From Ensifer adhaerens (GTDB lineage: Bacteria > Pseudomonadota > Alphaproteobacteria > Rhizobiales > Rhizobiaceae): DNA of 64,000 nt. Of this stretch, positions 1,619-9,033 are shown piece by piece (position 1 is the stretch's first letter; the number at the start of each line of letters is the position of its first letter). A program made the translations under genes and the position numbers. Below the pieces are notes generated by a model that saw only the letters and a list, made by a program, of their open reading frames with translations, was not told the DNA's origin and ran no database searches. The stretch covers positions 62,001 through 126,000 of the forward strand of contig NZ_PNFP01000015.1 of assembly GCF_002940685.1 (NCBI RefSeq), in the 5' to 3' direction.

Positions 1619-2503
1619 TTGGCCGTGTCCACAACTGTTTTTCCGTTTCGCGCCGGCCTGTTCGCGCTGGCCTTGGCAATCGCCGCTTGGCCGGCGCAGG
1701 CTCAGGCACTGAAGCCTTACAAGGACGAGCTGTTCTCCTACGCCAAGGTGCTGGGCGAGGAGGACGGCGGAGACGACCTGACGGTCGATTATCAGGAACT
1801 GCGGGATATCAACGAGCGCGACGAAATTCCCGAGCGCCGGGTGAAGCGCGCCTATGTCTCGCTCGGCGTCAAGAGCGAACAGGTCAATGAAACGCTCGAT
1901 ATCGGCGGCCGTGCGCTTGACGTGACGCGCGTCGGTCCTGACCGCGGCGCCGGCTTCTCGGTCATCTTCATTCACGGCCGCGGTGGCGATCGCCGGCTTG
2001 GCGCCAACGACTTTTCCTTCGGCGGCAACTTCAACCGGCTGAAGAACCTCGCGGTCGCCAATGGCGGCACCTATTACGCGCCGAGCGTCCGGTCCTTCGA
2101 TACGGCAGGCGCCAGCGATATCGCGGGGCTGATCCGATACGCGTCCGAACGCTCCGGCGGCCGTCCGGTCGTGCTCGCCTGCGCCTCGATGGGCAGTTTT
2201 ATCTGCTGGGGCGTGTCGCGCGACGCGTCGGCCGTCGCCGCGCTTTCCGGCCTGATGGTGATGGGAGGCGCGAGCGACCCGGATTTCACGAAAAGCGCCG
2301 CCTACCAGGCAAGGCTCCCGATGTTCTTCAGCCATGGCAGCCGGGACAGCGTCTATCCCGCCGATGGTCAAAAGGCGCTCTACCGTTCGCTCAAGGCAAA
2401 GGGCTATCCTACGCGTTTCGTGCTCTTCGAAGGCGGCTCCCATGGCACGCCCGTGCGAATGACTGACTGGCGCGATGCCCTGAACTGGATCGGCAGCCGC
2501 TGA
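1619..2503 (+). CDS. Secreted alpha/beta hydrolase
   Basis: 294-residue predicted periplasmic serine hydrolase. Residues 1-30 form a signal peptide with a hydrophobic core (LFALALAIAAW) and an AQA cleavage site. An FIHGRGGD oxyanion loop (118-124) is followed by a nucleophile-elbow variant ACASMGS with Ser190, then Asp243 (GSRDSVY) and His275 (GGSHGTP), a complete catalytic triad in the usual order. The start is TTG at 1619, chosen because a purine-rich AGAGGGAG lies just upstream and it gives a full signal peptide; GTG 1625 is an alternative. It is divergent from parE. The substrate is unknown; a dienelactone-hydrolase or carboxylesterase type is likely. Confidence 0.7.
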   Translation: MAVSTTVFPFRAGLFALALAIAAWPAQAQALKPYKDELFSYAKVLGEEDGGDDLTVDYQELRDINERDEIPERRVKRAYVSLGVKSEQVNETLDIGGRALDVTRVGPDRGAGFSVIFIHGRGGDRRLGANDFSFGGNFNRLKNLAVANGGTYYAPSVRSFDTAGASDIAGLIRYASERSGGRPVVLACASMGSFICWGVSRDASAVAALSGLMVMGGASDPDFTKSAAYQARLPMFFSHGSRDSVYPADGQKALYRSLKAKGYPTRFVLFEGGSHGTPVRMTDWRDALNWIGSR

Positions 2504-2594
2504 GATCAGGCCCTGTCGCTCTGCATTTGTTAACCAGCACGGCAATTTCCGGGCAAGGCGCCCGCTCGCGTTTCCACTCTGGAAAGTTGAAGTC

Positions 2595-4073
2595 GTGATG
2601 ATACCGGCAACTATGGCTGGGATGGACTTCATGGACGCGCGCACCGAGACACGGCACGTTCCGCTGTGTGTGGATCTGGACGGCACTTTGCTGGCCGCCG
2701 ATACCCTGTGGGAAGGGGCGGCGATCATCCTGCTGCGCAATCCGCTGATGCTGTTTGCCATGTTGTTCTGGCTTTCGAAGGGCAAGGCACGGCTGAAGCA
2801 TGAAGTGGCGCTGCGGTCCGACCGCAGGGCGGAAGACTGGCCCTACCGCCAGGCCGTCATCGACCGGCTCGCGCAGGAGAAGAAGACGGGACGCGAGCTG
2901 GTGCTGGTCACCGGTGCCGCGCCCTCCGTGGCAAAGGACATTGCCGCGCATGTCGGCATTTTTTCCTCGGTCATGCATTCGACGGACGAACTCAACCTGA
3001 CGAGCAGCCGCAAGCGTCAGGCGCTGGTCGAACGCTTCGGCGACGGCGCCTTCGACTATATGGGCAACAGCCGCGACGACATCGCTGTCTTCGAGGTGGC
3101 GCGCCGCGCGATCGTGGTCTCGCCCGATGCCGCCGCGGAGAAATGGCGCCGCAACCATGACGCCGAACGGCTCGATACGGGCAAGGTGAGTGTGCTCGCG
3201 CCGCTGAAATCGATCCGGGTGCATCAATGGGCGAAGAATGTGCTTATCGGCGTGCCGATGATCCTCAATCACGAGGTGCTGCACCTCGATGCGATCGTCA
3301 GCGTCGTCATCGCCTTCTTCGCCTTCAGCTTCCTCGCCTCCGCCGTCTACGTCATCAACGATCTCTCGGACCTTGCCAACGATCGCCGCCATGCGAAGAA
3401 ACGCTTCAGGCCGCTCGCCAGCGGACAGATGTCCGTGCCGACGGCGCTGGTGCTCGCCGGCTGCCTCATCGTCGCATCCATGGCGCTCACCCTTCTCTTG
3501 CCCTGGAAATTTGCCGGGGTGCTCGCCTTTTATGCTTGCGCCACGACGGCCTATACCTTCGTGCTGAAACGCAAGCTGCTTGTCGACGTGTTCACGCTCG
3601 CCGGTCTTTACACCACCCGCATCGTTGCCGGCGCGGCAGCCACCGGCACGGAACTCTCCTTCTGGCTGGTGTCCTTTGCGATCTTCTTCTTCCTCAGCCT
3701 CGCGCTGGTGAAGCGCTATGTCGAGCTGCACGAGTTCGAGGACAAGGACGGCGGCAATGTGCCGGGGCGCGGTTATCTCGCCGTCGATTTCGAGATGGTA
3801 GGCCAGGCCGGTGTCGCTTCGGCTTTCACCTCGGCGCTCGTCCTCGCGCTCTACGTGCACAGCAAGGAGCTGCAGGAGATGTACACCACGCCCTGGGCGT
3901 TGTGGCCACTCTGCCCGCTGGTGCTTTATATGTTGCTGCGCATCTGGATGCTCGCCCGCCGCGGCATGCTGCATGAGGATCCGGTCGTGTTCATCATGCG
4001 CGACTGGCGCAGCCAACTGACCATGCTGATCGGCGCGCTGCTGATCCTTTTTGGAGCCATCGGGCCGCAATGA
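2595..4073 (+). CDS. HAD phosphatase - UbiA prenyltransferase fusion (putative polyprenyl-phosphate pentose synthase)
   Basis: 492 residues with two domains. Residues about 22-195 are a HAD-type hydrolase: motif I is DLDGTLL (Asp27, Asp29), and the motif IV region is YMGNSRDDIAVF. From about residue 204 a UbiA-family membrane domain begins (VHQWAKNVLIGVP), with the prenyl-diphosphate/Mg motif NDLSDLANDRRH (from about 255), then DVFTLAGLYTTRI and 7-9 hydrophobic segments. In mycobacteria the UbiA relative Rv3806c transfers phosphoribose to decaprenyl phosphate and a separate phosphatase then removes the 5-phosphate; here both activities may sit on one chain (inference). The last 4 bases overlap the next gene (ATGA), a DprE1-like oxidase, which supports a lipid-linked pentose pathway rather than quinone synthesis. 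Confidence 0.8.
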   Translation: MMIPATMAGMDFMDARTETRHVPLCVDLDGTLLAADTLWEGAAIILLRNPLMLFAMLFWLSKGKARLKHEVALRSDRRAEDWPYRQAVIDRLAQEKKTGRELVLVTGAAPSVAKDIAAHVGIFSSVMHSTDELNLTSSRKRQALVERFGDGAFDYMGNSRDDIAVFEVARRAIVVSPDAAAEKWRRNHDAERLDTGKVSVLAPLKSIRVHQWAKNVLIGVPMILNHEVLHLDAIVSVVIAFFAFSFLASAVYVINDLSDLANDRRHAKKRFRPLASGQMSVPTALVLAGCLIVASMALTLLLPWKFAGVLAFYACATTAYTFVLKRKLLVDVFTLAGLYTTRIVAGAAATGTELSFWLVSFAIFFFLSLALVKRYVELHEFEDKDGGNVPGRGYLAVDFEMVGQAGVASAFTSALVLALYVHSKELQEMYTTPWALWPLCPLVLYMLLRIWMLARRGMLHEDPVVFIMRDWRSQLTMLIGALLILFGAIGPQ

Positions 4074-5392
4074 CCCTTGAAGACCATGAAAGCTGGGGCC
4101 GCATCGACAATCGCGTGCGGCCTGGAATTTCGCCTGACGACTACGAAGACCGGCTCGGCACGTTGGAACCGCAAGGTTATTTGCCCTTCGGCAACGGTCG
4201 CAGCTATGGCGACAGCTGCCACAACGATCAGGGTCATCTGATCGAGAGCCGTCGGCACGGGCGCATCCTGGCGTTTGATCCCGGCACCGGCATGATGACC
4301 TGCGAGGCCGGCGTGACGTTGCGCGCGGTGTTGGAGCGGGCGATCGAGCACCGGTTCTTCCTGCCGGTGACGCCCGGCACGGCCTTCGTTACCGTCGGCG
4401 GTGCGGTTGCAAACGACGTGCACGGCAAGAACCACCACGCGCGCGGCACCTTCGGCAACCATGTGACGGCTTTCAGGCTGCTGCGCTCGACTGGCGAGCG
4501 GCTGACCTGCTCGCCAGTCGAGAATCCGGAGCTTTACGCCGCGACCATCGGCGGCATGGGGCTGACGGGGCTGATCCTCACCGTCGATCTCCGATTGATG
4601 AAGGTGCCGTCGCCCCATGTGCAGCAGCACGCGATCCGCTTCGAAAACCTGGACCGATACTTTGCCCTCGTCGACGGCGTCGACGCCGAGCATGAATACT
4701 CCGTCGCCTGGATCGACCAGCTCGCCACCGGCGCGCGCATGGGCAGGGGCGTGCTTCTGGCCGGCGACCATGCCGACGGTTCCTGCGAACTGCCCGACAT
4801 TCCCAAGGGCCTGAAACTCTCGGTGCCGTTTTCGCCGCCGTTCAACCTCTTGAACCGGGCAACGCTCAAGGGCTTCAACGAGTACTATTTCCGCAAGGTG
4901 AAGCCGGGAGAGACGGTGACGACCGTTCCCTGGACCTCCTACTTCTATCCGCTCGATGCCATCGGCGCCTGGAACCGGCTCTATGGTCCGCGCGGCCTCT
5001 ACCAGCATCAGAGCGTCTATCCCGCCGAGAATGCGCCGGAAATTACGGCCAGGCTCATGGAAGCCGCCCGCCAGGCCGGCCATGCGTCGTTCCTGACGAT
5101 CCTGAAGCGGTTCGGCGACATCGGCTCCCGGGGCATGCTGTCCTTCCCGCGTCCCGGTTTTACTTTGACGCTGGACTTCGCCAATCAAGGTGAACGGACA
5201 GTAAAGCTGCTCGATGCGCTCGATCGTATCGTCATCGAGGCCGGCGGTGCGATCAATCCTTACAAGGATGCCCGTATGAGTCCGCAAGTCTTTGAAAAAT
5301 CATTTCCTTTGTGGAGATTGCTTGAAGCCCAGCGCGACCCGGCGCTCGTTTCAAACTTCTGGAAGCGCACGGCTCTGGCTTTGCCAGAATGA
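4070..5392 (+). CDS. DprE1-like FAD-dependent oxidase (decaprenylphosphoryl-ribose 2'-epimerase subunit homologue)
   Basis: 440-residue FAD-binding PCMH/ALO-type oxidoreductase. FAD motifs closely resemble mycobacterial DprE1: GRSYGDS (43-49), NDVHGKNHHARGTFGNH (about 120-136) and IGGMGLTGLI (about 161-170). DprE1 oxidises the 2'-OH of decaprenylphosphoryl ribose so that a partner reductase (DprE2) can return it as the arabinose epimer. The C-terminal INPYKDARMSPQVF region fits the family's substrate domain. ATG overlaps the stop of the HAD-UbiA gene, so the two are translationally coupled. No obvious DprE2-type classical SDR is adjacent; the extended SDR at 5923 may or may not fill that role. 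A Nod-factor arabinosylation role like Azorhizobium noeH is possible, but no nod genes are here. Confidence 0.8.
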   Translation: MTLEDHESWGRIDNRVRPGISPDDYEDRLGTLEPQGYLPFGNGRSYGDSCHNDQGHLIESRRHGRILAFDPGTGMMTCEAGVTLRAVLERAIEHRFFLPVTPGTAFVTVGGAVANDVHGKNHHARGTFGNHVTAFRLLRSTGERLTCSPVENPELYAATIGGMGLTGLILTVDLRLMKVPSPHVQQHAIRFENLDRYFALVDGVDAEHEYSVAWIDQLATGARMGRGVLLAGDHADGSCELPDIPKGLKLSVPFSPPFNLLNRATLKGFNEYYFRKVKPGETVTTVPWTSYFYPLDAIGAWNRLYGPRGLYQHQSVYPAENAPEITARLMEAARQAGHASFLTILKRFGDIGSRGMLSFPRPGFTLTLDFANQGERTVKLLDALDRIVIEAGGAINPYKDARMSPQVFEKSFPLWRLLEAQRDPALVSNFWKRTALALPE

Positions 5393-5485
5393 GAATGCAG
5401 ACAATTTTATTCAATTAAATGCGCAAACTTCACGGAATATCCGTCTCTTGCCCGTAAGTAGATTTTCGGGACTGGGAGTAAAACT

Positions 5486-5926
5486 ATGAAATATATTCCA
5501 TTCATTCTCTTTACGGTGCTGACCAACGCCGCCGCTCAGCTGATGCTGAAGCAGGGCATGATGACGCTCGGGCCGATTTCGATGACTGCCGAAACCGCAA
5601 TCGTCCGGCTGTTTCAGATCGTCTTCAACCCTTGGGTCTTTGCCGGCCTTGCGACCTTCGTCATCTCGATGGCGTCGCATCTCTACGTGCTGTCCAAGGT
5701 CGAGCTTTCCTTTGCCTATCCGTTCCTGAGCCTCGCATACGTCGCCGTCGCGGTCTTTGCCTATTTCGTCTTTCGCGAAGACCTCAACGCCTGGCGCGTC
5801 GCCGGCATCGCGCTGATCTGCGCGGGGACCGTTCTTATCGCCCAGTCGGGCATCTCATCCCATGCCGACGACAAGCCGGCCGAGACCGCCGGGGTGAGCA
5901 CCGCAGAATTCGGGAGCAAGTCATGA
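5486..5926 (+). CDS. Half-size SMR/EamA-type transporter, ArnE/ArnF-like putative lipid-sugar flippase
   Basis: 146 residues with four hydrophobic helices (about 3-22, 50-70, 76-97, 102-120) and a short polar C-terminal tail. The AAAQLMLKQG segment in helix 1 and the YPFLSLAYV segment in helix 3 match the small EamA/SMR-like proteins to which ArnE and ArnF (undecaprenyl-phosphate-aminoarabinose flippase) belong. Such proteins work as homo- or heterodimers; only one copy is present here. Its place between a polyprenyl-phosphate sugar synthase/oxidase pair and an epimerase suggests that it flips the lipid-linked sugar to the periplasm (inference). A 93-bp gap precedes it, the largest in the operon, so an internal promoter is possible. 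Its stop overlaps the next start (ATGA). Confidence 0.65.
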   Translation: MKYIPFILFTVLTNAAAQLMLKQGMMTLGPISMTAETAIVRLFQIVFNPWVFAGLATFVISMASHLYVLSKVELSFAYPFLSLAYVAVAVFAYFVFREDLNAWRVAGIALICAGTVLIAQSGISSHADDKPAETAGVSTAEFGSKS

Positions 5927-6933
5927 AACACATCATCTTTGGTGGCGACGGTTTCGTTGGCCGTCACCTGGCGGAACGCCTCGTCAAGGACGGCGAGGAA
6001 GTGGTCGTTGCCGATATCGTCAAGTCCGAGCTGCCGCATTACGGCCGCGTGCGCTTCGTTCATTGCGACGTGACCGATCCGGAGGCGGTGCTGAAGGTTG
6101 GCATCGGCGCTGACGACATGGTCTACAACATGGCGGCCAAGATGCTGTCGCCGCTGCAGATCCGCTCGAAGCGCTGGGAGTTCTTCTGGCCCGTCAATTA
6201 CTACGGTGCCGAGAACATCATGAAGGCCATGGACGCCGCCGGCGCGTCGCGCCTGGTGCAGTTCACCACCGACATGATCTACGGCCACACGGTGCAATCG
6301 CCGCAGACCGAAGACCATCCGGCAAGGCCGCTCGGCGAATACGGCAAGTCGAAATGGGCGACCGAGCAACTCGCTGTGCAATGGCGCAAGCAGGGCATGA
6401 ACATTTCGATCTTCCGCCCGCGCCTGATCATCGGCCCCGGCCGCCTCGGCATTCTGGAAAAACTGTTCAAGCTGATCGATCTGAACCTGCCGGTGCCGAT
6501 GATCGGCTCGGGCAAGGTGCCCTACCAGTTCATCTCGGTCTTCGATTGCGCCGAAGCCGCACGTCTTGCCTGGAAGGGCGGCGTTCCGAACGAAGCTTAC
6601 AATCTCGGCTCCGACAATCCGCCTTCGGTGCGCGAGCTGCTGGGCAACCTGATCAAGCATGCCGGCTCGAAGTCGTTCCTGCTGCCGACACCCGCCTTTG
6701 CGGTGAAGCAGACGCTCGCCTTCTTCGACCTGGTCAACAAGCCGATCATGGATCCGGAGCAGTATCTGATCGCCGACGAGATGTGCGTACGCGAGACCGG
6801 CAAGCTCAAGCGCGAGCTCGGCTGGCGCGCGGAGTTCAACGATGGCGACATGCTGATCGCCGCCTATGACGAATATCGGGCCAAGAAGATGGGCGCGGCA
6901 GTTCCTGCAGCTGTCGCCGTTCCGGCCGAATGA
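5923..6933 (+). CDS. NAD-dependent epimerase/dehydratase (extended SDR)
   Basis: 336 residues. Rossmann NAD motif GGDGFVGRHL (7-16), FTTDMIYG with the catalytic Thr (about 115-116), and the Tyr140-x3-Lys144 pair in EYGKSK mark an active extended SDR. A sugar-binding C-terminal part includes RPRLIIGPGR and an AYNLGSDNPPSVRELL segment typical of nucleotide-sugar or lipid-linked sugar epimerases. The open frame extends well upstream, but ATG 5923 overlaps the previous stop as ATGA and starts exactly at the beta-alpha-beta fold, so I chose it. The substrate is unknown; the lipid-linked pentose made by the upstream genes is the contextual guess. It could replace the missing DprE2 reductase or act in a tailoring step. 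Confidence 0.75.
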   Translation: MKHIIFGGDGFVGRHLAERLVKDGEEVVVADIVKSELPHYGRVRFVHCDVTDPEAVLKVGIGADDMVYNMAAKMLSPLQIRSKRWEFFWPVNYYGAENIMKAMDAAGASRLVQFTTDMIYGHTVQSPQTEDHPARPLGEYGKSKWATEQLAVQWRKQGMNISIFRPRLIIGPGRLGILEKLFKLIDLNLPVPMIGSGKVPYQFISVFDCAEAARLAWKGGVPNEAYNLGSDNPPSVRELLGNLIKHAGSKSFLLPTPAFAVKQTLAFFDLVNKPIMDPEQYLIADEMCVRETGKLKRELGWRAEFNDGDMLIAAYDEYRAKKMGAAVPAAVAVPAE

Positions 6934-6944
6934 GGGGAGAGATC

Positions 6945-8396
6945 ATGCTGGACAGACCGAACCGTATTGCCGTTGCCGCCCCCTCGCTCGATGGCGGCGT
7001 TGCCAGGCCCGATCTCGTCACCGTCGAACAGGCGAAAGCCATGTCGATCGGCGACATCACCACGGCCTTCAAGGAGCACCTGAACCCCGGCCAGTTGCAC
7101 TTCATGAAGCTTCTCGGCTTCCACAAGGTGAAGATCGAGAGCGCAGAAGGCATGTTCTATACCGACCAGAACGGCCGCAAGATCCTCGATTTCTTCGGTG
7201 GCTTCGGCTCGCTCGCCTTCGGCCACAACCATCGGCGCATTCTCGAAGCCCGCCAGAAGTTCCAGGATGAGAAGCGCCACGAGATTGCGATCGCCTTCAT
7301 GTCGCAATACGCAGCAGCACTGGCAAAGAACATCGCTGCCTGCTCGCCTGGCGATCTCGACATGGTCTTCCTCGGCTCCTCCGGCTCGGAAGCGATGGAG
7401 GCGGCGGTCAAGCTCGCCGAGCGTGCCGCCGGTCCGAAGCGGCCGAAGGTCGTCTATGCCGAGAATTCCTTCCACGGCAAGACCAAGGGCGTGCTCGCCA
7501 TCACCGACGGCCAGCTCTATCGCGCCGACTTCAAGCTCACCGACAACACCGTGCGCGTGCCCTTCGCCGATATCGACGCGGTGGAGAGCGCCTTCAAGTC
7601 GGACCCGGAAATCGGCGTGATCGTGCTCGAAACCATCCAGGGCGGCGGCGGCATCATCCAGGCGTCGGCCGAGTACTGGCAGAAGCTGCGCGCGCTCTGC
7701 GACAAATATGGCGTTCTCTGGGTCGCCGACGAGGTGCAGTGCGGTTATGGCCGCTCCGGCCGCTTCTATGCCTTCGAGCACTACGGGGTCGTGCCTGACG
7801 TGACGGCACTCGCCAAGTCGCTCGGCGCCGGCAAGGCCGCTGTCGGTGCGATGATCGCGCGCCGCGAAGTCTATATGAAGGCCTATGGCACGTCGAAGAC
7901 GGCGATGATCCATGCGATGGCGACCTTCGGCGGCATGGGCGAGGCCTGCGTGACCGCGATCGAAGGCATCAATGTACTCTACGACGAACACCTGATCGAT
8001 CGCGCCGCCGACAGCGGCAGCTACCTGCTCGACCGTCTGCAGGCGCTGAAGGCGAAGTATCCGAAGATCATCAAGGACGTACGTGGCCAGGGGCTGATGA
8101 TCGGTCTGGAATTCCAGGACTTCAGCCAGACGCTGCCGATGGTGCTGCGCCCTGTTGTCTCGATGCTCGACGACAAGCTGAAAGGCTCGCTCTCCGGCTT
8201 CATCGGTGCGCTGCTGCTGCGCGACTACGATGTGCTGGTCGCCTTTACCGAATACAATCGCAACGTCATCCGGCTCGAGCCGCCGCTGATCTGCGAGCGC
8301 GCCCATGTCGACCAGTTTATTTCAGCGCTCGACGAGCTGCTCGGTCGCGGTATCGTGGGGATCGTCAAGGGCTTTCTCGAAAGTCAGATCGGCTAA
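6945..8396 (+). CDS. Class III (PLP-dependent) aminotransferase
   Basis: 483 residues, fold-type I PLP enzyme. Visible landmarks are LGSSGSEAMEAAVKLA (phosphate-binding loop), the DEVQCGYGRSG cofactor Asp, and LAKSLGAGK with the Schiff-base Lys291. I chose ATG 6945 because GAGGGGAGAG lies just upstream; ATG 6930 would add five residues and overlap the previous stop. Class III enzymes act on omega-amines or on aldehydes. HpnO of hopanoid synthesis belongs to this group and aminates a lipid-linked ribose, which is suggestive in this operon. The final acceptor is unknown. Last gene of the five-gene operon; a hairpin follows the stop. Confidence 0.75.
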   Translation: MLDRPNRIAVAAPSLDGGVARPDLVTVEQAKAMSIGDITTAFKEHLNPGQLHFMKLLGFHKVKIESAEGMFYTDQNGRKILDFFGGFGSLAFGHNHRRILEARQKFQDEKRHEIAIAFMSQYAAALAKNIAACSPGDLDMVFLGSSGSEAMEAAVKLAERAAGPKRPKVVYAENSFHGKTKGVLAITDGQLYRADFKLTDNTVRVPFADIDAVESAFKSDPEIGVIVLETIQGGGGIIQASAEYWQKLRALCDKYGVLWVADEVQCGYGRSGRFYAFEHYGVVPDVTALAKSLGAGKAAVGAMIARREVYMKAYGTSKTAMIHAMATFGGMGEACVTAIEGINVLYDEHLIDRAADSGSYLLDRLQALKAKYPKIIKDVRGQGLMIGLEFQDFSQTLPMVLRPVVSMLDDKLKGSLSGFIGALLLRDYDVLVAFTEYNRNVIRLEPPLICERAHVDQFISALDELLGRGIVGIVKGFLESQIG

Positions 8397-8419
8397 GCGA
8401 CGGACAGATCGATCCGACG

Positions 8420-8450
8420 AAGGGCAGGGGTGCTCAGCGCCTCTGCCCTT
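8420..8450. terminator. Shared hairpin between convergent genes
   Basis: AAGGGCAG (8420-8427) pairs with CTGCCCTT (8443-8450), extended inward by G-C and G-U pairs. It lies just after the aminotransferase stop and overlaps the last codons of the convergent yceI-like gene. Only a short T run follows on the plus strand, so termination strength is uncertain. Confidence 0.45.
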
Positions 8451-9033
8451 TGATGTTCATGTCGAACTCGACGACATTCGAGTAGATCGGCGTGCCGACA
8501 TCCATGCCATAGGGTGAACGGTGGATATTACCGCGGATGTTGAAGGCGATCGAGGCGCGGTTCCAGTCAAGCAGCGTCACCGAAAAGCGTTCCTTGCGCG
8601 ACGTACCGCGCGCCGTCAACGTGCCCTCGACCGCTGCCGTATCGGGGCCGGTCTGTTTCACATTCGTCGAGCGGAAGGTGACGGTGTTGTAGTTCGCCGT
8701 GTCGAAGACGGCGCTCGACTTCAGGAAGTCCTCGATCCGCTTTTCTCCCGTTTTCACGCTCTCCGGATAGAGCGTGAACTCGACGGTCGAGTGGCCGACA
8801 TCATTGCGGTCGATGCGGAAACTGCCGGAAAACCTCGCGAAATTGCCGACAATGCCGCCGCCGCCCGCTTGTGCGACCGTGAAGTGGATACGTGAAGCCG
8901 GCGTAATGCCGTAGTTGCCGGCGGCATCGGCAAGGTCAGGCGCGGCGGCTGCTGCGGGTGACGGCATGCTTCCCAGCGCCAGCAGCAGCGTGAAAGCGAT
9001 GGTCTTTGTTGGTGATTGCAAGCGCAGTGTCAT
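8434..9033 (-). CDS. YceI-family periplasmic protein
   Basis: 199 residues with a signal peptide (TIAFTLLLALGSMPSPAAAA) and a YceI lipocalin-like beta-barrel: SRIHFTVAQAG, FSGSFRIDRND, VEFTLYPESVKTG, and VEGTLTARGTSRKERFSVTL. YceI proteins bind long isoprenoid or amphiphilic ligands in the periplasm; a specific role in this organism is not known. The start at ATG 9033 overlaps the stop of the upstream cytochrome b561 gene by four bases, so the pair is one translationally coupled operon. YceI next to cytochrome b561 is a common arrangement in proteobacteria. Confidence 0.85.
   Translation of the reverse strand: MTLRLQSPTKTIAFTLLLALGSMPSPAAAAAPDLADAAGNYGITPASRIHFTVAQAGGGGIVGNFARFSGSFRIDRNDVGHSTVEFTLYPESVKTGEKRIEDFLKSSAVFDTANYNTVTFRSTNVKQTGPDTAAVEGTLTARGTSRKERFSVTLLDWNRASIAFNIRGNIHRSPYGMDVGTPIYSNVVEFDMNIKGQRR

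Follow-up and report, generated by a model that had tools for sequence, protein, structure and literature searches.

Routes to lipid-linked pentofuranose donors are known for ribose, xylose and arabinose. The closest described counterparts of the genes discussed here are the three-component systems, such as Citrobacter youngae ORF12-15. According to the main text of Kelly et al. 2024 (PMC11127046), a HAD-UbiA fusion both produced farnesyl-P-ribofuranose in vitro and brought ribosylation back in vivo, the gene for a short-chain dehydrogenase/reductase (SDR) decides for xylofuranose, and a GT-C glycosyltransferase (GT136) transfers the sugar; the Citrobacter SDR, ORF13, is optional, as seen in the O2 and O1 serotypes. 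Here, we describe a set of five genes from Ensifer adhaerens, located at positions 2595-8396 on the plus strand of the 64,000-nucleotide stretch of DNA that was analysed (the window). It encodes a HAD phosphatase-UbiA polyprenyl-phosphate phosphoribosyltransferase fusion, a DprE1-like flavin adenine dinucleotide (FAD) oxidase, a small EmrE/ArnF-like transporter, an extended SDR and a class III pyridoxal phosphate (PLP) aminotransferase (AT). We consider it highly probable that the set supplies a lipid-linked pentofuranose donor to a GT-C partner, and likely that this donor is aminated. We lean slightly toward amination at the keto carbon made by DprE1, such that AT, and not DprE2, would take the keto sugar and yield a lipid-linked aminopentofuranose for the GT-C.

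By family assignment, the set resembles the three-component systems in its HAD-UbiA fusion, GalE-like SDR, GT-C and candidate flippase, and in both the SDR can be absent (there, serotype O1 versus O2). Unlike those systems, it adds DprE1 and a class III AT and has an SMR-like rather than a MATE flippase candidate; the window genome encodes its GT-C away from the set, and its surroundings showed no O-antigen genes. The mycobacterial decaprenylphosphoryl arabinose (DPA) pathway likewise has a UbiA-type decaprenylphosphoryl phosphoribose synthase and a DprE1 with a catalytic lysine. The set differs from it in that no DprE2 ortholog was seen with the one query used, a HAD domain stands in place of Rv3807c, an AT is added, and the GT-C families involved (25 and 34, described below) match no solved chain by sequence profile. 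In the Arn route, ArnB aminates the UDP-sugar. An ArnF-like small transporter and an ArnT-like GT-C model are shared with ArnBCDEFT, as would be an aminopentose on undecaprenyl phosphate if the proposed pathway holds; here, however, a class III enzyme would aminate the furanose while it is attached to the lipid. ArnA, ArnB and ArnC are not among the five genes, and no search of the genome for arn genes was made. Another rhizobial use of lipid-linked pentofuranose is the arabinosylation of Nod factor by noeCHOP of Azorhizobium (with noeN in Rhizobium sp. IRBG74), as given in the relevant passages of PMC2443382 and PMC5080398. The noe genes described there adjoin nod genes and serve D-arabinose, whereas this set has an AT, an extended SDR and a different neighbourhood. 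The main text of PMC11127046 never uses the word “aminotransferase”, and in the open-access literature we found no aminated pentofuranose donor; an Actinoplanes paper that combines GT-C and aminotransferase terms appeared to be unrelated.

In the proposed pathway, the HAD-UbiA fusion would move ribose-5-phosphate from phosphoribosyl pyrophosphate to polyprenyl phosphate (probably undecaprenyl phosphate) and then dephosphorylate the product. DprE1 would oxidise C2 to give a keto sugar, and the AT, in place of reduction by DprE2, would turn the ketone into an amine, yielding a lipid-linked 2-amino-2-deoxypentofuranose. In an optional step, the SDR may epimerise one more position, C3 if Citrobacter ORF13 is a guide. 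The EmrE/ArnF-like protein would flip the lipid-linked sugar, and a GT-C encoded elsewhere in the genome (G000:C34:40824-42509) would transfer it to an envelope acceptor. The first activity is assigned by likeness to the protein of the same domain architecture in PMC11127046. The predicted C2 oxidation and flipping follow from family membership, the GT-C partnership rests on gene association with a predicted activity, and the amination and epimerisation steps are those we infer. The fullest form of the proposal is that a PLP AT acts directly on the polyprenyl-phosphate keto-pentofuranose made by DprE1 to give a new class of lipid-linked donor, and that two GT-C families, unmatched in sequence searches, attach its aminofuranose to a conserved envelope molecule across the Rhizobiaceae; to this we give an even chance.

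The family assignments in the initial annotation were upheld for all five proteins by Pfam and NCBIfam. The fusion protein (2595..4073) matches Pfam UbiA with 91.7 bits and HAD with 27.3 bits, reaches 581.6 bits on NCBIfam NF006088 (cut-off 351), and matches the mycobacterial decaprenyl-phosphate phosphoribosyltransferase PDB 8j8j at E 3.5e-26. Its HAD motif DLDGT is kept in 69 of 76 alignment rows, the remaining 7 being gapped, and the invariant residues of the UbiA motif NDxxDxxxDRxH are kept in 75 of the 76. With domains and motifs present, this is a predicted polyprenyl-phosphoribose synthase with a phosphatase domain. The oxidase (4070..5392), predicted to carry out C2 oxidation of lipid-linked ribose, scores 331 bits on the NCBIfam DprE1 model (next family, 39 bits) and matches solved DprE1 chains in the Protein Data Bank (PDB) at E 9e-64 to 1.1e-66 (4aut, 1.1e-66), compared with 8.5e-8 for the best non-DprE1. 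Thus, by profile and pairwise scores rather than by a tree that includes lactone oxidases, it sits with DprE1 and does not group with alditol or gulonolactone oxidases; NCBIfam profile and PDB pairwise scores rule out a lactone or alditol oxidase identity. Counted on the pairwise alignment, Lys399 aligns with Lys418 of Mycobacterium tuberculosis DprE1, which we take to be the catalytic lysine. The residue matching the benzothiazinone cysteine (387) is Thr in 79 of 80 rows of the module clade (one gapped), and Ala in all nine examined DprE1s that belong to other clusters or have no cluster around them.

The small transporter (5486..5926; Pfam EamA, 31.5 bits) is the predicted flippase of the lipid-linked sugar. 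The extended SDR (5923..6933; Pfam Epimerase, 117 bits) is a predicted epimerase of the lipid-linked sugar. Its YxxxK motif is kept in 65 of 65 rows and its GGDGFVG motif in 63, with the other two gapped. The AT (6945..8396) matches Pfam Aminotran_3 with 284.5 bits.

To collect relatives, we searched genome contigs at the protein level for DprE1, keeping the best 80 of 372 confirmed loci, and all five proteins occur together at 64 of these 80 loci by tblastn. This association is far beyond chance, although the loci were chosen by their DprE1. Among the exceptions, five Ensifer/Sinorhizobium loci (L065-L069) have DprE1 alone, seven Hoeflea loci have UbiA-DprE1 only, L090, L091 and L094 are without the SDR, and at L046, where the contig ends inside the set, no AT was found. 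An EamA-family gene stands between DprE1 and EmrE at L100 and L103. The seven Hoeflea genomes encode AT and SDR away from UbiA-DprE1, and all four with an AT region that was read have EmrE-SDR-AT together. Among the 26 full loci whose DprE1 is most divergent, mean identity to the window proteins is 52 percent for UbiA, 57 for DprE1, 72 for EmrE, 72 for SDR and 76 for AT, the highest of the five; in the middle 26 loci, the SDR mean (85 percent) exceeds that of AT (79 percent). As labelled in the sequence records, L052, L076 and L088 are chromosomal and L102 is on a plasmid. The genes flanking the set are common to many Ensifer, Rhizobium and Pararhizobium loci. The set lies in a neighbourhood conserved across many members of the family and does not look like a symbiosis feature, though no search for nod genes was made. 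A role in Nod factor synthesis is not favoured, judged from the neighbourhood alone and with no search for nod or noe genes. Since the set lies outside any O-antigen genes seen, its position suggests that the acceptor is a core envelope molecule rather than variable O antigen.

The initial annotation had found no GT-C nearby. This stood for the locus itself but not for the genome or its relatives, where two families of predicted GT-C proteins lie downstream of AT: family 25 (about 570 residues), on the opposite strand at 13 of the 80 loci, and family 34 (about 400 residues), on the same strand at 7 of the 80, with 8 proteins in all. Eight scanned proteins (two of family 25, six of family 34) had no Pfam match at 0.001. 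Since profile searches of the PDB with both families gave no sequence match, their GT-C fold rests on models. Three family-34 proteins gave faint matches on NCBIfam, at 17-24 bits against a cut-off of 150, to the AZOBR_p60025 cell-surface glycopolymer family. The window genome (99.99 percent complete) carries one family-25 member on another contig, at G000:C34:40824-42509 (40 percent identity, E 2.3e-125), adjoining genes that resemble glmU and glmS, names that we take from the starts of their sequences. Searches with one protein and with profiles found no family-34 member there. The model of the window-genome family-25 protein has a mean predicted local distance difference test score (pLDDT) of 91.4, and its best match is ArnT (E 8e-5, probability 1.00), followed by AglB and AftA (0.99). 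For family 34, the model has a pLDDT of 88.7, and ArnT again comes first with a weak E of 0.08, a probability of 1.00 and a template modelling score (TM-score) of about 0.4. In each family, a conserved W-D motif follows the first long helix seen in the model. A GT-C glycosyltransferase, as judged from its model, is therefore present in the window genome, as in the three-component systems, and we reject the absence of any fitting GT-C from the genome.

The Hoeflea genome G126 has two family-25 genes at separate places (L145 and L146), and of the 7 Hoeflea genomes in which the set is split, 5 have two family-25 matches. At L159 (G033), a weak family-25 relative lies directly before another HAD-UbiA-like gene, without AT, which is perhaps an unaminated version.

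Co-occurrence ties the AT to these putative transferases. In a family sample of 65 genomes, taken from 121 searched, AT is present in 39. All 39 have family 25 or 34, and each of the 13 that lack family 25 has family 34; among the 26 genomes without AT there is a single family-25 match, weak and partial (G033). DprE1 accompanies AT in 39 of 39 genomes and is found in 2 of the 26 others (an orphan in G045 and a classical cluster in G047), and the SDR is present in 38 of the 39 and in none of the 26. Fisher p-values range from 3e-17 to 8e-16 but, because the genomes are related, do not come from independent trials. It is tempting to ask whether AT merely shares an operon with the other genes and serves general amine metabolism, with no amino sugar made, particularly as its nearest solved structures are PigE and putrescine aminotransferase. 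We regard this as very unlikely, as AT tracks the two GT-C families in all 39 family-sample genomes and sits with another UbiA-DprE1 pair in G340, a genome from another family in which EmrE-SDR-AT accompany a HAD-less UbiA and a DprE1 from a different clade. Among the 385 genomes of a class sample, AT is confined to the window genome and G340, and no genome other than the window's has family 25; because at most four candidates per genome were scored, absence in this sample is weaker evidence.

What, then, takes the DprE1 product? The initial annotation had noted that DprE2 is absent, and this held: a whole-genome search with one DprE2 query gave only generic SDR matches in the window genome (best, 8e-15). 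The query, a DprE2-like SDR from the classical cluster at L141 (G047), was run over 21 genomes and gave 1e-36 to 1e-73 in three other genomes with classical clusters (G071, G102 and G095). Such separate clusters, of UbiA, DprE1 and a DprE2-like classical SDR, were seen in L140, L141, L143 and L144, and the same-genus genome G071 carries both a classical cluster and the five-gene kind. In mycobacteria, DprE1 depends on a reducing partner; with no DprE2 ortholog found by this query, the SDR might replace DprE2, so that UbiA, HAD, DprE1 and SDR would make undecaprenyl-phosphate-arabinofuranose while AT acts elsewhere or on another carbon of the finished pentose; the presence of the SDR in 38 of 39 AT genomes fits this. 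However, the SDR was not found genome-wide in G133 (L090), G134 (L091; apparently the same genome as G019) or G135 (L094), all of which have AT, DprE1, UbiA, EmrE and a GT-C. These genomes fall in two separate DprE1 clades, from which we infer at least two losses of the SDR. This pattern fits an optional epimerase better than an obligatory reductase. The SDR is also GalE-like, unlike the classical type that adjoins DprE1 in arabinose-type clusters, and in the most distant loci none of the five proteins is better conserved than AT, although the SDR surpasses it in the middle group. We consider replacement of DprE2 by the SDR unlikely. Because the SDR appears dispensable, like Citrobacter ORF13, AT is left as the putative acceptor of the DprE1 keto sugar. 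For the same reasons, a missing DprE2 step and a dispensable SDR, we do not favour the DPA-like arabinose product of the initial annotation; its lipid-linked, possibly aminated pentose fared better, as family membership and gene association support its making and flipping well, and amination is likely.

The SDR and AT could also form a pair of their own, with the SDR oxidising C3 (or C5), AT aminating there, and DprE1 acting separately at C2. Oxidoreductase-aminotransferase pairs are the usual route to amino sugars; the SDR adjoins AT, and both travel with EmrE where UbiA-DprE1 are apart, as in Hoeflea. The persistence of AT without the SDR in three genomes argues against such a pair, and we judge it a little less probable again than the SDR acting as DprE2. 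Amination at the DprE1 keto carbon remains the reading we prefer.

Several observations weigh against this reading. The 331 bits of the oxidase fall below the DprE1 equivalog cut-off of 500, and the EmrE/ArnF-like protein reaches 55 bits on the ArnF model, below the equivalog cut-off of 99. Against solved GT-Cs, the GT-C models reach TM-scores of only about 0.4 (family 25: 0.26-0.40 to the query). G340 has AT and no match to family 25 or 34, and four further non-family genomes match family 34 (E 5e-21 to 1.5e-59) but lack AT; these are exceptions to the AT/GT-C pairing outside the family. In G042, G037 and G088, UbiA-EmrE-SDR-AT occur without an adjoining DprE1, with a DprE1 of another subtype, lysine kept, elsewhere; in G082, EmrE-SDR-AT lie apart from the UbiA-DprE1 pair. 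As no module-type DprE1 is adjacent in these four genomes, their AT-DprE1 link rests on other-subtype DprE1s elsewhere. On pNGR234a, a distant SDR lies next to an SMR protein and a GMC flavin oxidase, which could mean that the SDR is the oxidase's reducing partner. Finally, AT could aminate a different carbon, or its substrate could be a nucleotide sugar or an unrelated compound.

Distant SDR relatives (27 and 46 percent) lie near GMC oxidoreductases at L171 (pNGR234a) and L170 (Azospirillum pAB510f). Large, polytopic-looking proteins without a Pfam match are found near both, with an SMR transporter also on pNGR234a, so these neighbourhoods are possibly a parallel sugar-donor system.

Of 80 rows (the window and 79 loci), 75 retain the DprE1 lysine; the others are four orphan DprE1s and one gapped row (L076). 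At L065-L069, AT, SDR and families 25 and 34 are absent genome-wide, and UbiA and EmrE are missing at the locus and were not sought elsewhere; G045 (L139) also has no AT, SDR, family 25 or family 34. In the six orphan DprE1s the lysine position reads N, N, A, K, H and M, a change in 5 of 6, and all six have Leu at the Arg44 position. Since they branch beside the DprE1s of Ensifer modules, the loss is derived. DprE1 catalysis seems, from these residues, to be kept where the pathway is kept. At L076, UbiA, DprE1 and SDR are each split in two pieces by tblastn, possibly through assembly errors.

The five reading frames were confirmed at their original coordinates, all on the plus strand. Of the three ATGA overlaps reported, those at 4070-4073 and 5923-5926 are secure and the third, at 6930, is doubtful. 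The AT open reading frame spans 6930-8396, with a second ATG at 6945 (MLDRP...) preceded by the stretch GGGGAGAG. Because several AT homologs (e.g., L135, L137 and L163) are called from the methionine equivalent to ATG 6945, this is the probable start, and the ATGA at 6930 is probably not a true junction. The start of the HAD-UbiA gene is uncertain (GTG at 2595, or ATG at 2622 or 2631). Between DprE1 and the EmrE-like gene lie 93 bp, giving a 2+3 arrangement whose two parts are separate in Hoeflea. Promoter and terminator scans of 2300-8700 did no better than shuffles, and no promoter-like site was found.

If the proposed pathway is true, the pentofuranose donor route would extend to an amino sugar, with DprE1 feeding an aminotransferase instead of DprE2. 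Two GT-C families, whose scanned members have no Pfam match, would be tied to this donor by gene co-occurrence. In enteric bacteria, aminoarabinose changes surface charge, and the added amine would change surface charge here as well. Altogether, this would give a plant-associated bacterial family a defined gene set for a surface sugar, one that can be tested by simple deletions.

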